DNA from: Pontibacter flavimaris
GTDB lineage: Bacteria; Bacteroidota; Bacteroidia; Cytophagales; Hymenobacteraceae
Assembly: GCF_001907195.1 (NCBI RefSeq)
Contig: NZ_LVWA01000004.1
Location: forward strand, 310,001-374,000
Direction of reading: 5' to 3'
Length of the DNA stretch: 64,000 nucleotides
The position numbers and the translations under genes are program-made. The notes under the pieces were generated by a model. That model saw only the letters and a list, made by a program, of their open reading frames with translations. It had not been told where the DNA came from and did not search any database. This document shows, one piece after another, positions 1 to 61,403 of the stretch (positions are counted from its first letter, which is position 1; each line of letters begins with the position of its first letter).

Positions 1-112
1 ACAAGTACCCGTAGCGCAGGAAGTATAATTTGGAGATATGGAGATGACTTCATGCTTTCAGCGTATCCTATAACCCGCCCATTCACTCAATCACTCATTC
101 AAAATTAATCAA

Positions 113-1492
113 GTGGCTAAGATAAAGACATCCTACTTCTGTCAGAACTGCGGCGCCCAATCGGCTAAGTGGATCGGCAAGTGCCCGGCCTGCGGCGAGT
201 GGAACACCTACGTGGAGGAAGTGGTGCAGCGCGAGGAGGTAACGCCCACCACCGCCTGGAAAGTGGGCAGCAGTTCGGCGCAGGTAGCCAACAAGCCCAA
301 GCCCATTGCCGACATCAGCTATCAGGAGCAGCAGCGCGTCGTAACGCAGGACCAGGAGTTGAACCGGGTGCTGGGCGGCGGCATTGTGCCCGGCTCCATG
401 GTATTGATCGGCGGCGAGCCGGGCATCGGCAAGAGCACGCTGATGCTGCAGATCGCCCTGAGCCTGCAGGGGCTGAAGGTGCTGTACGTGAGCGGCGAGG
501 AGAGCGAGCAGCAGATAAAGATGCGCGCCGAGCGCCTCATGGCCCAAACCTCCGACTGCTTTATACTGACCGAGACCGGCACCCAGAACATCTTTAAGCA
601 AATAGAGCTGGTGCGGCCGCAGGTGCTCATCATCGACTCCATCCAGACCCTCCACTCCTCTTTTATAGAGGCGGGCGCGGGCAGCGTGAGTCAGGTGCGC
701 GAGTGCACTGCTGAGCTGCTCAAGTTTGCCAAAGAGAGCGGCACGCCGGTCTTCCTGATCGGCCACATCACTAAAGAGGGTAACTTGGCCGGGCCTAAGA
801 TTCTGGAGCACATGGTAGACACGGTACTGCAGTTTGAGGGCGATCGCCACATGACTTACCGCATCCTGCGCACCACCAAAAACCGCTTCGGCTCCACCTC
901 AGAGCTGGGTATTTACGAGATGATGGGCTCGGGCCTGCGTGAGGTGAGCAACCCGTCGGAGATCCTGATCTCGCAGCGCGAGGATGCCTTTAGCGGCATC
1001 AGTATAGGCGCCACGCTGGAGGGCAACCGCCCGCTGCTGATAGAGGTGCAGAGCCTGGTGAGCCCGGCCACCTATGGCACGCCGCAACGCACCAGCACCG
1101 GCTTCGATGCCAAGCGCCTGAACATGCTGCTGGCCGTGCTGGAGAAACGCGGCGGCTACCGCCTCGGTGCCCAGGACGTGTTCCTGAACATTGCCGGCGG
1201 CCTGAAAGTAGAGGACCCTGCGCTGGACCTGGCCGTGTGCGCCTCCATCCTCTCCTCTTTCGAGGACATGCCGATCTCCAACACCGCATGCTTTGCCGCT
1301 GAGGTGGGCCTGGGCGGTGAGGTGCGCGCCGTGAACCGCGTGGAGAACCGCATCACGGAGGCCGAGAAACTGGGCTTTACTGATATCTACATCTCCAAGT
1401 ACAACAAGAAAGGTGTGGATCTGAGCAAGTTCTCCATCAACGTGCATGCCTATGGGCGGTTGGAGGAGGTGTTCGCGAGTCTTTTCGGCTAG
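113..1492 (+). CDS. radA: DNA repair protein RadA (Sms)
   Basis: RadA is a RecA-like ATPase that helps process recombination intermediates and extends heteroduplex DNA during repair. The N-terminus carries the RadA zinc finger (C10, C13, C24, C27). A Walker A motif GEPGIGKST lies near residues 101-109, and the RadA-specific KNRFG motif follows near residue 255. The C-terminal third is the Lon-protease-like domain, with text such as FLNIAGGLKVEDPALDLAV. The 459-residue length is normal for the family. The start is GTG; no in-frame ATG fits better, because translation from this GTG begins directly with the conserved finger. A strong hairpin terminator follows, so it looks monocistronic. Confidence 0.97.
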   Translation: MAKIKTSYFCQNCGAQSAKWIGKCPACGEWNTYVEEVVQREEVTPTTAWKVGSSSAQVANKPKPIADISYQEQQRVVTQDQELNRVLGGGIVPGSMVLIGGEPGIGKSTLMLQIALSLQGLKVLYVSGEESEQQIKMRAERLMAQTSDCFILTETGTQNIFKQIELVRPQVLIIDSIQTLHSSFIEAGAGSVSQVRECTAELLKFAKESGTPVFLIGHITKEGNLAGPKILEHMVDTVLQFEGDRHMTYRILRTTKNRFGSTSELGIYEMMGSGLREVSNPSEILISQREDAFSGISIGATLEGNRPLLIEVQSLVSPATYGTPQRTSTGFDAKRLNMLLAVLEKRGGYRLGAQDVFLNIAGGLKVEDPALDLAVCASILSSFEDMPISNTACFAAEVGLGGEVRAVNRVENRITEAEKLGFTDIYISKYNKKGVDLSKFSINVHAYGRLEEVFASLFG

Positions 1493-56590: not shown

Positions 56591-56734
56591 AGACCTCGCG
56601 GTGTACAGAGACCCGGCGAGTCGGAGATCCCAAACACTTTCGGGGCGTCTGGTGGAAAGGCTACTGCTCTGCTTCGTAGCTGAAGGCGTTGGAGAGGTTA
56701 GACGCTCGCGGGTCGTAAAGACGCCACGAGGTCT
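56591..56734. repeat. Long imperfect palindrome (REP/BIME-like)
   Basis: The left arm 56591-56622 (AGACCTCGCGG...GGCGAGTC) is complementary, with mismatches, to the right arm 56701-56734 (GACGCTCGCGGG...CCACGAGGTCT); the outer 11 bp pair with one mismatch. Each arm can also fold on itself. The GACCTCGCGG-type sequence is like hairpin repeats common in Bacteroidota. It lies in the 373-bp gene-free gap (56443-56816) just past the RT gene's 3' end; a link to the RT is not shown. Confidence 0.6.
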
Positions 56735-56816
56735 GTTGGGTTAAGGAACGCAGATGTAAGTCTCTATACAATCCATTTTTAGAAGCGTTTTCTGATGCTT
56801 AGTTATCTCTTCATTC

Positions 56817-58901
56817 CTACACTGGAACCTGACTTAAAGCATTTACTTTGGAGATAACCTCTAAGTATCCTTCTTTCATCGTTTTCTTGTTCCTCTTGAT
56901 TTCTGCAAAGCGAAGCCTTCTTGTATACTTGTTCGTGCTCTTTTCTAATGGGTGTGACAATTCACTCTTCAACCTTAAGTTGTGCACTATGTCGCATAGT
57001 TTATAAAACTTAGGGTATAAGGTTTGTAACCTTATAGAGTTAAGCACTGAGCCTATTTTTCCTAAAGTATAGCTGCCAAGCTGATTATCTACCTTATATA
57101 GACTATCAAGAAGTAAGTCGTTAAAGACATCTAGTTGGTTAAAGTATGCCGTAGCATCGGTTTGCATATAAGATCTACACATGAACAACTGCCTTTCACA
57201 CTTAGGATGTTTTCTGCCGAATAGTCTTTTCCAATCGCATTCAGGCAGCCGTTCTTTAAGTATTATTTTAAGGCTATCACTTATTGTGCTGTTTCGATAA
57301 ATAGGTGTTTTGATCTTTCCTAGCTTCGATAGCGGAATTTGAGCTAAAGGATTTATTGTATTTTTCTCTACTGTTACTTTCAAATCATTACTTATGCATA
57401 GATAAGCGGCGCTTAGTGCAACATCGCTACTGTCATTGATAAGTAAGCTATTGATGAGTTCTTGGTAAGAAGCAACGCCATAGTGATCTTTTTTTATTTC
57501 ACCAATTATAGATTGTATCGTCCAACTGCTTGATTTAGCTAGTAATCTCTCTAAATCAATGTAAGTAAGTTTAAGATCACATAGCAGCCATGTTAAAATG
57601 ATTGATCTTAAAGTTGGAGATCTTAAAGTGTCAATAATCCTGACATAATTTAGGCATATATTGATGATGTCATCATAGTAGTCTTTATGAATTCGATTCA
57701 GACAACATCTTAAGTACATTGCTGTAGTCTCTTCATATAAGTTGTTTGTTTTTATTTGGTGAACAAGTTCTTCTGACACTCTCTTAGAGAGTTTAGGCAA
57801 ACTTTCATAATATCTAAGAACAGGCTCATATAGATGCTGCTGTTTATTTAATACTTGTAATAGCTTATTATTTAATTGAGTACTAGGAGTAGCAATATTA
57901 AGAAGGTATTTAAACTGAGTCTCATTATTGATCTTGTCTCCTTTTGTTAGCTTGCTAAGCTTATTGAGTACTTTCTCAGCGCTCATGCTTTTTTCTGCCT
58001 CCCTTATTTCTGGGTCTTGGCTAATCGTCTTAATTTCATCGAAGACGTTCGTAATTTCATGTATATCAATTTTAGCCGGCTGGGGGAATAAACCGACTCT
58101 TTTACTTAGAAGGTCTAAGGCTAGCAATCCCTGTTTTACTCCTCGTTCATCGAGAGCCATTAACCTAATGTCATCTACGTATCTAAGATATTTAACAGGA
58201 AGTTTAGACTTCTTAAACTCTTCATCAACATAATGCATCACCACTTCGGCTAATAAGCTAGATGCCATTGGCCCCTGCGGTATGCCATGGCCATGATATA
58301 AACCTTCTCCCGTGTTACAGGTCCATTTCCCTAAGCAGTCTGTTAAAAATTTAATAAAGTCATCACCAAGTCCATGCGTTGAAAGTATATACCCTAAAAC
58401 TTTATGATCTATAGAATCATAAAATGCAGTTAAGTCAAAAGTTGCAGTTGTTGTTAAACCGTTTTGATAAGATTTTATTAGAGTACGATTAAAGAGGCTG
58501 TACCCTTTCTTCCAGTCTTTAAAAAAGAAAGTTGCTTTAGGACCATTGTACCTGTTTCCAAAGTTGACTTTGTTATAGTTGCCTTCAACTTTGGTTAGTA
58601 GCTTATCTGCGATTATGTTTACAAGAGCCTGATAAACAATCTGATCTTCTATTGACAGAAGTGTAAATGGTCTTAGAATGCCGCTTTTTTTGGGAATGTA
58701 TACTTTAGTAGAATGAGAGGGAATATAAGTGCCATCCTTTAGCCTCTTTCTAAGATCTTTGATAGATTCTTCATTAGATAAAGCATAAGCCTTATATAGA
58801 TTTCTAAAATAGCTTTTGTAGTCATATTTAACACTTGTGTTGAGCCATTTCCAACTTTTCTTAAGGTTATCGATTTCGTAAAATCTTCTTAAATCTTTCA
58901 T
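56817..58901 (-). CDS. Solitary reverse transcriptase, Abi/UG (antiviral DRT-like) type
   Basis: The 694-residue protein has a full RT domain. RT1-2 is VYIPKKSGILRPFTLLSIED; motif A is TFDLTAFYDSIDH (D156); motif B is GIPQGPMASSLLAEV (PQG 208-210); motif C is LRYVDDIRLMA (Y241-V-D-D244); motif D/E follows at FPQPAKIDIHEI. No maturase, endonuclease or nitrilase domain is seen, nor a retron msr/msd pattern. Residues about 300-694 are helical and Leu-rich, as in Abi/UG RTs with alpha-repeat tails, and carry R643-x6-H650 near the end. The gene is AT-rich against its flanks, suggesting transfer. Only 82 nt lie between its start and the nrdA terminator. An antiviral role is inferred; the subtype is undecided. 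Confidence 0.85.
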   Translation of the reverse strand: MKDLRRFYEIDNLKKSWKWLNTSVKYDYKSYFRNLYKAYALSNEESIKDLRKRLKDGTYIPSHSTKVYIPKKSGILRPFTLLSIEDQIVYQALVNIIADKLLTKVEGNYNKVNFGNRYNGPKATFFFKDWKKGYSLFNRTLIKSYQNGLTTTATFDLTAFYDSIDHKVLGYILSTHGLGDDFIKFLTDCLGKWTCNTGEGLYHGHGIPQGPMASSLLAEVVMHYVDEEFKKSKLPVKYLRYVDDIRLMALDERGVKQGLLALDLLSKRVGLFPQPAKIDIHEITNVFDEIKTISQDPEIREAEKSMSAEKVLNKLSKLTKGDKINNETQFKYLLNIATPSTQLNNKLLQVLNKQQHLYEPVLRYYESLPKLSKRVSEELVHQIKTNNLYEETTAMYLRCCLNRIHKDYYDDIINICLNYVRIIDTLRSPTLRSIILTWLLCDLKLTYIDLERLLAKSSSWTIQSIIGEIKKDHYGVASYQELINSLLINDSSDVALSAAYLCISNDLKVTVEKNTINPLAQIPLSKLGKIKTPIYRNSTISDSLKIILKERLPECDWKRLFGRKHPKCERQLFMCRSYMQTDATAYFNQLDVFNDLLLDSLYKVDNQLGSYTLGKIGSVLNSIRLQTLYPKFYKLCDIVHNLRLKSELSHPLEKSTNKYTRRLRFAEIKRNKKTMKEGYLEVISKVNALSQVPV

Positions 58902-58982
58902 CGCAAGTGGTGTAGATAATATAATACTACCCGCTAACAGGGCACTAGCAGTAACATAGGACTTATAAGAGGTAGGAAAAAG

Positions 58983-59013
58983 AAGAAGGAGGGCGATGTG
59001 CCCTCCTTCTTTA
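58983..59013 (-). terminator. Terminator of nrdA
   Basis: AAGAAGGAGGGC (58983-58994) pairs with GCCCTCCTTCTT (59000-59011), loop GATGT; on the minus strand it is followed by a T-rich tract (CTTTTTCC). Confidence 0.88.
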
Positions 59014-59018
59014 GTTAT

Positions 59019-61403
59019 TTACGATCCGCAAGCTTCGCAAGCGTCCGGGTTGTCCAGGGAGCAGCTCATGTCGCTGCGGTTCTGATCCTGGTTGCTATAC
59101 ACCGGCGAAAGGGTTTCGGCGGCTTGCTTCTCCACGGTAAACTTAATGGCGTCCACGGCAGATTTGGTGCGCAGGTAGTACATACCTGTTTTCAGTCCGC
59201 GCTTCCAGGCGTGGAAGTGCATCGAGGTCAGCTTGCCGAAGTTCACGTTCTGCACGTGCAGGTTCAGCGACTGGCTCTGGCAAATAAAGGCACCACGGTC
59301 GGCGCTCATGTCAATCACAGCACGCTGGCTGATCTCCCACACGGTTTTGTACAGGTCCTTGATGTGCTGCGGGATGTTCGGGATATCCTGCACAGAGCCA
59401 TTGGCCGCAATGATATCCTGCTTCATCTTATCGTTCCAGATACCCAGCGCGATCAGGTCCTTGAGCAGGTGCTTGTTCACCACCATAAACTCGCCGGAAA
59501 GTACGCGGCGCAGGTAAATGTTAGACGTATAAGGCTCAAACGACTCGTTATTACCCAGTATCTGCGCTGTAGAGGCAGTAGGCATTGGCGCCAGCAGCAG
59601 TGAGTTGCGTGCACCGTGCTCTATTACCTCCTTGCGCAGGCTTTCCCAGTCCCAACGGCCACTCTCCGGCGTTACACCCCACATGTCGAACTGGAACTTG
59701 CCCTCCGACAGTGGAGAGCCTTTAAACGTCTCGTAAGCACCGTTCTTCTTAGCCAGATCCTTAGAGGCCGTCATGGCTGCGAAGTAGATCGTCTCGAAGA
59801 TGTCTTTGTTCAACCCTTTTGCCTCGTCGCTCTCGAACGGCATGCGCAGGTGAATAAAGGTATCGGCCAGGCCCTGCACGCCTAACCCGATTGGGCGGTG
59901 GCGCATGTTCGAGTTCTGCGCCTCCGGCACCGGGTAATAGTTGATATCGATAACCTTGTTCAGGTTGACCGTGGCATGGTAGGTTACGTCGAACAGCTTC
60001 TGGTGGTCGAAGGTCTTGTTGCCTTTATCGTCCTCTTTCACAAAGCGCGGCAGCGCCAGCGAGGCCAGGTTACACACGGCAATCTCGTCTTTGCTGGTGT
60101 ACTCCATGATCTCAGTGCACAGGTTCGAGCTCTTGATGGTGCCCAGGTTCTGCTGGTTAGACTTACAGTTGGCGTGGTCTTTATACAGCATGTACGGCGT
60201 GCCCGTCTCTATCTGCGACTCCAGGATATGGAACCACAGTTCCTGCGCCTTTACCGTTTTGCGGGCACGGCCCTCGCGCTCATACTTCTCGTAGAGGCGC
60301 TCGAAGTCCTTACCCCAGCACTCGCCCAAGCCAGGTGCCTCGTTCGGGCAGAACAGGCTCCAGTCGCCGTTCTCCTCCACGCGCCGCATGAACAGGTCCG
60401 GTGTCCAGAGGGCGTAGAACAGGTCGCGGGCGCGGTTCTCCTCCTTGCCGTGGTTCTTCTTCAACTCCAGGAAATCGAAGATGTCGGCATGCCATGGCTC
60501 CAGGTAAATGGCAAAGGCGCCTTTGCGCTTGCCACCGCCCTGGTCTACGTAGCGGGCCGTGTCGTTAAACACCTTCAGCATCGGGATGATGCCGTTGGAG
60601 GTGCCGTTGGTGCCTTTGATGTAAGAACCCGTGGCACGTACGTTGTGGATGCTCAGGCCGATACCGCCGGCGCTCTGCGAAATCTGCGCGCACTGCTTCA
60701 GCGTGTCGTAAATGCCCGGGATACTGTCGTCCTGCATGGTCAGCAGGAAGCAGGAAGAAAGCTGTGGCTTTGGCGTGCCGGCGTTGAATAAGGTTGGGGT
60801 GGCGTGCGTAAACCACTTCTCAGACATGAGGTTATAAGTCTCAATGGCAGATTCGATGTCCTCCTTGTGGATACCCACGGCCACACGCATCAACATATGC
60901 TGCGGGCGCTCCACGATCTTGCCATCCAGGCGAAGCAGGTAAGAGCGCTCCAGTGTCTTATAGCCAAAGTAATCGTAGTTGTAGTCGCGGTCGTAGATGA
61001 TGGTGGAGTCGAGCAGGGCCGCGTGCTTGCGGATGATCTCATACACATCTTTGGCCAGCAGCGAAGCGTTCTCCCCTGTTTTCGGGTCCTCGTAAGTATA
61101 GAGGCGCTTCATGGTGTTGGAGAATGACTTGCTCGTTACCTTGTGCAGGCTCGAGATGGCCACGCGCGCTGCCAGCACCGCGTAGTCCGGATGCTTGGTG
61201 GTAAGCGATGCAGCCGTCTCGGCAGCCAGGTTGTCCAGCTCCACGGTGGTCACGCCATCGTAAATGCCGTCGATCACCTTTTTGGCCACCTCAATCGGCG
61301 ACACGTAGTCCATGTGCAAACCATAGCACAGCTTCTCGATGCGTGCGGTAATCTTGTCGAATTTGACGGACTCGCGTCGGCCGTCGCGTTTAACTACTAA
61401 CAT
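59019..61403 (-). CDS. nrdA: Ribonucleoside-diphosphate reductase alpha subunit (class I)
   Basis: NrdA reduces ribonucleoside diphosphates to the deoxy forms for DNA synthesis. The 794-residue protein starts with an ATP-cone domain ([21 protein letters not shown]). The catalytic region has [46 protein letters not shown] (active-site cysteine) and [17 protein letters not shown]; the C-terminal redox pair is CEACGS. The text is closer to eukaryotic R1 than to E. coli NrdA. nrdB lies 360 bp upstream on the same strand. Confidence 0.97.

Follow-up and report, generated by a model that had tools for sequence, protein, structure and literature searches.

The reverse transcriptase (RT) gene at positions 56817 to 58901 of the window, the whole 64,000-nucleotide stretch of the Pontibacter flavimaris genome analysed here, encodes a protein that its sequence firmly places in the UG19 family. 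The protein is an ordinary member of a rare and uncharacterised family of defence RTs, but its location is unusual and informative: in this genus the site behind nrdA serves as a recurrent slot for a single gene, which is new in this analysis. The features of the locus are as follows.

56817 to 58901, minus strand: UG19 reverse transcriptase gene, 694 amino acids, one intact open reading frame
58059 to 58697, minus strand: RT (palm/fingers) domain, residues 69-281, from Pfam RVT_1 and structure matches
58434 to 58436 and 58170 to 58181, minus strand: catalytic codons of D156 and of YVDD, respectively, from the sequence
57297 to 58019, minus strand: HEAT/armadillo-like helical solenoid, about residues 295-535, from the predicted structure
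56820 to 57374, minus strand: C-terminal domain, about residues 510-694, putatively HEPN-like, from the models and a motif
56952 to 56975, minus strand: R643-x6-H650 motif, invariant in 4/4 one-gene UG19 proteins
58891 to 58965, minus strand: slot leader, its last 11 nt overlapping the RT start, with a hairpin at 58933-58949
58983 to 59011, minus strand: intrinsic terminator right after the nrdA stop, with a similar hairpin behind nrdA in most congeners
59019 to 61403, minus strand: nrdA, 794 amino acids, the conserved edge of the slot

The family is settled by a full-length match to the PADLOC profile RT_UG19 (E 1.4e-173; residues 2-684 against profile positions 2-560 of 562), far ahead of the next family, UG21 (7.9e-57), and by an NCBIfam intron-RT model, TIGR04416, that reaches only 92.9 bits, its cut-off being 300. 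Pfam recognises RVT_1 alone (residues 69-281, E 6.8e-15). The catalytic motifs described by the first-pass annotation are indeed intact, with F155-D156 and Y241-V242-D243-D244 present, and D156 and the YVDD at 241-244 are invariant across the four one-gene UG19 proteins known here. The same annotation had proposed an Abi/UG-type enzyme belonging to neither a group II intron nor a retron, a placement that now narrows to UG19. Pfam detects no maturase or endonuclease domain in the protein, and Rfam detects no group II intron RNA around the gene in the window. Among the best 25 of 49 PADLOC matches, headed by UG19, there is no retron RT model, and AbiA is absent as well; Rfam, which holds described families only, likewise gives no msr/msd match beside the RT in the window. 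PADLOC lists UG19 as a DRT, and no tested feature of the window protein differs from that family. A literature search found no experimental paper on UG19, and in the excerpted text of one study of bacterial RTs the name occurs a single time, in a table, where it is a candidate label (PMC8934634).

On the minus strand the gene order is nrdB, nrdA and RT, with a gap of 117 bp from the nrdA stop to the RT gene and the terminator inside it. The other flank consists of approximately 370 bp with no convincing gene, followed by small genes; the earlier description of the gene as lying between housekeeping genes therefore holds for the nrdA side only. No partner gene is present at the locus, as had been noted, and in the window no Rfam family attained gathering score and no tRNA was found. 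The RT gene has a GC content of 0.349, whereas the other open reading frames counted in the same 8 kb have a median of 0.544. This difference in base composition had been taken to suggest acquisition by transfer, which is upheld. No UG19-level match occurs in 36 genomes of the same genus, where the matches have 24-30% identity and are confined to residues 13-287, the RT region. The 370-bp stretch behind the RT includes a repeat also seen near nrdA in other genomes; a short repeat at window positions 56645-56738 recurs near nrdA in some congeners.

UG19 is rare wherever it was sought. Six UG19-level RTs were found in total, four of a one-gene form and two of a two-gene form. At E 1e-60, the family occurs in 2/247 genomes of the window's class (one being the genome itself), in 2/391 of the class of genome G135 (one being G135), in 1/32 of the family of G135 (G135 itself) and in 1/29 of the family of G538 (G538 itself). 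A phylum search at E 1e-30 matched 16 of 395 genomes, but only the window's own genome and G135 reach UG19 level, the remaining 14 matches ranging from 8e-31 to 8e-48. Two further searches of genome contigs yielded no confirmed relative. With the window protein alone as query, viral contigs gave no match, and later searches recovered only the same two prophages described below; the two-gene RT and its partner gave no match there. Among 77 plasmid records, none covers 80% of the query in a single stretch, and the best 40 of these show coverage of at most 40%, with 22 annotated as group II intron RTs. The 211-residue partner found no match on plasmids. Phages gave no match to the window protein and only partial matches (at most 38%, 11 records) to the prophage protein, and a DNA-level search of E. 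coli was also negative.

The one-gene form comprises the window protein, one protein from another genome (L025) and two from prophages (L071, L072), all of 686-694 amino acids; identity to the window protein is 40% over the full length for L025 and 38% for the prophage proteins. In the two-gene form (L075, L108), the RTs have 572 amino acids and end where the solenoid ends, and each is overlapped by a downstream partner gene encoding 211 residues. The one-gene proteins carry an extra domain of about 185 residues that the 572-residue RTs lack, and this domain was found in 2/218 phylum genomes, both within UG19. The partner gene of L073/L075 matches PADLOC RTas1465 (7e-12), and both partners carry an R156-x4-H161 motif. 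Since a profile comparison of the extra domain with the partner (four and two sequences, low power) gave no match, the origin of the one-gene form by fusion of RT and partner is no more than a possibility. Directly behind the UG19 RT of G135 lie two AT-rich genes of 232 and 409 amino acids (L074:11400-13548), the first of which has no Pfam or PADLOC match.

In both prophages the RT gene sits between endolysin and integrase, and phage-type matches occur on the same contigs (portal for L071; head and holin for L072). Integrase-adjacent sites of prophages and satellites are described as hotspots of defence genes (PMC9122126). Only 90 bp of free DNA precede each prophage RT gene and 7 bp follow it. 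The two 90-bp upstream stretches agree at 54/90 positions in an ungapped comparison, and the RT genes themselves differ at 18% of bases. The two relatives are under strong purifying selection: dN/dS is 0.057 overall, 0.049 in the RT domain, 0.056 in the solenoid and 0.067 in the C-terminal part, values that are rough, with a dS of 0.97-1.45, near saturation, but clearly low. Low ratios in every part imply that the active site and the C-terminal part are both kept by selection. No plasmid closely matches the prophage region of L072.

The long helical C-terminal half that had been anticipated resolves, in structure prediction, into a HEAT-like solenoid and a second domain with the R-x6-H motif. 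Two models were obtained, the first from a four-sequence alignment (pLDDT 50.5, poor, and too weak for the RT domain) and the second from a 20-row alignment (pLDDT 72.3, moderate, with much of residues 450-590 below 65). For the first model, Foldseek gave nothing beyond weak matches to RTs and helical proteins of a general kind, and the solved structures closest to the second are intron and G2L4 RTs, DRT4, Abi-P2, DRT9, AbiK and AbiA. VIA-align identifies the RT domain clearly (9d4s_A, Z 24.8, 271 residues at rmsd 3.0 A). The alignments of AbiK (7r07_C, 12..501, Z 18.0 over 361 residues at rmsd 5.7 A) and of DRT6 (9wy8_A, 11..524, Z 17.4 over 400 residues at rmsd 7.1 A) extend through the solenoid. 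Residues 295-535 of the first model align to ARM/HEAT chains at Z 8.6-10.3, values that helical repeats can attain through a shared arrangement and that unrelated helical proteins attain as well. An alpha-helical repeat domain of HEAT type is thus predicted behind the RT domain, which is a trait of class 1 UG RTs, and UG19 would belong to that class, as read from the fold rather than from a tree.

The C-terminal domain is likely HEPN-like, as judged from the models and its motif. Among the best 50 entries listed for each model, AbiA alone reaches residue 692. It aligns to the second model at 1..692 against 0..627 (Z 20.6, rmsd 11.8 A, 366 residues, 12% identity) and to the first at 340..692 against 314..627 (Z 8.9, the level of unrelated helical proteins, rmsd 11.4 A, 233 residues); an rmsd above 11 A means that individual parts can be aligned without superposition of the entire protein. 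R643, S646, L648, S649 and H650 are invariant in all four one-gene proteins, and R643 lies 49 residues before the aligned end, where R581 of AbiA lies 46 before its own. The HEPN reading gains weight from the motif's position close to the C-terminus and from the alignment to AbiA. The 185-residue domain contains two invariant arginines and two invariant histidines, and by rough arithmetic the chance of an arginine with a histidine at R-x4-6-H spacing is about 6%. No HEPN match was returned by Pfam or by a profile search of the PDB. The 2022 UG/Abi classification by Mestre et al. may already describe a HEPN-like domain in UG19. The AbiA motif is RNSNPVSH (residues 581-588, hence also R-x6-H), and its HEPN domain is reported to mediate dimers, with its removal abolishing polymerase activity (PMC11077055). 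Because the R581A/H588A substitutions of AbiA left defence intact and RNase activity was not found, in the excerpted text of that report, R-x6-H is not proof of an RNase (PMC11077055).

The enzyme is probably a solitary UG19 defence RT, acquired horizontally, that works by protein-primed and probably untemplated synthesis, bears a HEPN-like domain and is released by phage; its role in defence is the probable part, and its chemistry is drawn from analogy with related systems. DNA synthesis would start on a residue of the enzyme itself, as in AbiA and AbiK, and extension would proceed without an RNA template, probably untemplated. The HEPN-like domain may dimerise the RT or act as an RNA-cutting effector, and phage infection would release the activity and stop phage replication, as in Abi and DRT systems. 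The candidate primers are Y28, followed by the nearby Y31, Y36 and Y39, all four invariant in the one-gene proteins; the two-gene RTs align no tyrosine at these positions. The tyrosine from which AbiK primes is described as lying in an N-terminal loop, and those used by AbiA as lying between the RT and helical domains (PMC11077055). Y28 is named first since it is invariant and is predicted, in the second model, to lie before helix 29-41, in the loop that joins the first long helices of the N-terminus, as the AbiK priming tyrosine does, and since the linker at 290-326 has no invariant tyrosine.

Among characterised antiviral RTs, the Lactococcus protein AbiA (8OZ7) has a similar plan, with an RT, a helical domain and a C-terminal R-x6-H domain in one gene; its sequence identity and end-to-end superposition are nonetheless as poor as given above, and it does not appear among the PADLOC matches listed. 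AbiK and Abi-P2 share the RT and helical repeat domain (structural matches at E 1.9e-9 and 3.9e-10) but, in the excerpted text of the AbiA report, lack the HEPN domain that distinguishes AbiA among Abi polymerases (PMC11077055). DRT3b also joins an RT to an alpha-helical repeat domain and synthesises without a nucleic-acid template; class 1 UG RTs typically carry such a repeat domain, and those studied are described as template-free (PMC13174585). DRT3b, however, requires DRT3a and an RNA, whereas the window gene is solitary. Phages with mutations in nrdA and nrdB are reported to escape DRT9 (PMC12483538), which indicates that enzymes of this kind can be sensitive to the supply of nucleotides. 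The position of the RT behind the host nrdA is nevertheless more likely a matter of site than of function, because the other occupants of the slot are not polymerases.

Several UG RTs, among them DRT2, DRT9 and DRT10, copy a small RNA encoded in cis (PMC12632851, PMC13174585), and the 370 bp with no convincing gene behind the window RT could in principle hold one, with a fold z of -2.0 (3/100 shuffles equally low, a weak signal). Such an RNA is unlikely for UG19, given prophage flanks this small and the lack of an Rfam match in the window; the 90-bp stretches moreover agree no better than stated above, and the leader before the window RT belongs to the nrdA site rather than to the RT. An RNA overlapping a coding sequence is a possible partner. 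The first-pass annotation had left the RT to act either alone or with a small RNA, and of these action alone is now favoured, the small RNA being weakened by the sparse and dissimilar flanks. A template or partner encoded elsewhere in the genome, whether a trans-acting RNA or a toxin, has the precedent of the overlapping partner gene of L075 and L108, but those 572-residue RTs lack the C-terminal domain that the one-gene form carries instead, and dependence in trans appears somewhat less likely again. RTas1465 was found in 0/395 genomes, including the window's own, although this search had no positive control and, with no positive match anywhere, the count proves nothing. That the gene is the remnant of a mobile, group II intron-like RT, now immobile and devoid of a defence role, is highly improbable: the TIGR04416 score and a fold that also matches intron RTs speak for it, but the UG19 match is full-length, neither intron RNA nor a maturase or endonuclease domain accompanies the gene, its prophage relatives are under purifying selection, and its slot is common to defence-like genes. 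The solitary, protein-primed enzyme remains the preferred reading.

The first-pass annotation had pointed to a spot next to nrdA; the location stands, and it sharpens into the recurrent slot. The survey covered approximately 8 kb after nrdA in 30 congeners and the window's own genome (0.8 kb in G027, to the contig end), and a site was counted as occupied when a co-directional gene of at least 140 amino acids starts within 420 bp of the nrdA stop. By this measure the slot is occupied in 24/31 genomes, by genes that fall into 10 groups unrelated by BLAST. Occupant GC is below that of the neighbours in all 23 genomes with data (including G017, with G027 lacking data), by a mean of 0.128. The G017 group is presumably a Y1 transposase and hence is not treated as cargo. 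Of the 23 non-transposase occupants, 13 belong to groups whose scanned representatives have a defence-related match: the UG19 RT (1), SIR2-like (5), Abi_C/AbiJ-like (3), KAP NTPase with a weak PDC-S20 match (2), Mrr-like nuclease (1) and a PDC-M24A/B pair (1). One member of the SIR2-like group, from G006, is itself without a Pfam match. The other 10 comprise eight members of a single family, a Core-2-type glycosyltransferase and one unassigned gene. That family, the largest, occupies 8/31 genomes (L077, L081, L089, L093, L096, L097, L102, L103), its G016 copy being broken at the start. Three representatives gave no match above cut-off in Pfam, PADLOC or NCBIfam, with one sub-cut-off Pfam match, and the family is a candidate new defence family. 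An NCBIfam scan of 10 slot-region proteins was also negative. Among the seven empty sites, G022 keeps a decayed SIR2-like piece and G021 a decayed AbiJ-like piece, and G015, counted as empty, has a 181-residue AT-rich gene on the opposite strand. Small genes that we take to be Y1-type REP transposase-like lie beside the slot at L083, L084, L090, L091, L093, L095, L099, L104 and L105. A literature search of titles and abstract openings found no paper on a gene slot behind nrdA.

Between the nrdA terminator and the occupant, 17/31 genomes share a leader with a 6-pair hairpin; the search expression does not find it in the other 14, of which 10 are occupied. In the hairpin, 94.1% of cells pair, a value as high in 2/500 shuffles and at most 52.5% in slid controls, and the covariation score of 0.488 is equalled in 0/500 shuffles. 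Pair-count and pair-type measures do not rise above shuffles (346 and 235 of 500). A leader model finds one copy per genome in 22/41 genomes of the genus and, across the family, copies in 24/150 genomes, all in this one genus among six (L115-L138); these searches scored only the best first-look candidates under strict filters and could miss weak further copies. Seven of the 24 leader-bearing genomes were not used in building the model. The leader lies directly behind nrdA in all seven, and an AT-rich gene comes next in six. Of these six genes, the three scanned by Pfam are Abi_C (G958, G957) and SIR2_2 (G035), and those of G993, G959 and G956 look SIR2-like, as judged from the first residues only, the last reading in two frames. 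The copy before the window RT is diverged (62.5 bits, against up to 83.9). Tentatively, and with less confidence than attaches to the enzyme, the locus may be a dedicated single-gene immune slot, in which the fixed structured leader would be a shared switch, either a promoter with an operator or an RNA element, for whichever gene is current. Genes would be exchanged between species, and the UG19 RT would be the present occupant, having arrived with its own fused effector domain.

The window RT is a compact one-gene candidate from a rare family of defence RTs, and the residues to test in it are clear. If its C-terminal domain is HEPN, it would join AbiA as a second single-gene RT-HEPN architecture. 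The two-gene relatives provide a natural split version in which to ask whether DNA synthesis controls the second module. The slot behind nrdA is a route to new defence genes in the genus.

The window's own genome (C5) holds further RTs. One, of 793 amino acids (L109:5237-7618), best matches RT-Protease_XI and RT-TIR_XII in PADLOC, both retron types of a single gene; neither of the two genes beside it has a PADLOC match, and genes nearby presumably represent a type I restriction system. Another belongs to a type II-A retron (NDT and RT; L110:4443-8295) with a GC content of approximately 0.29, located directly behind a gene for an AriA/OLD-like ATPase.
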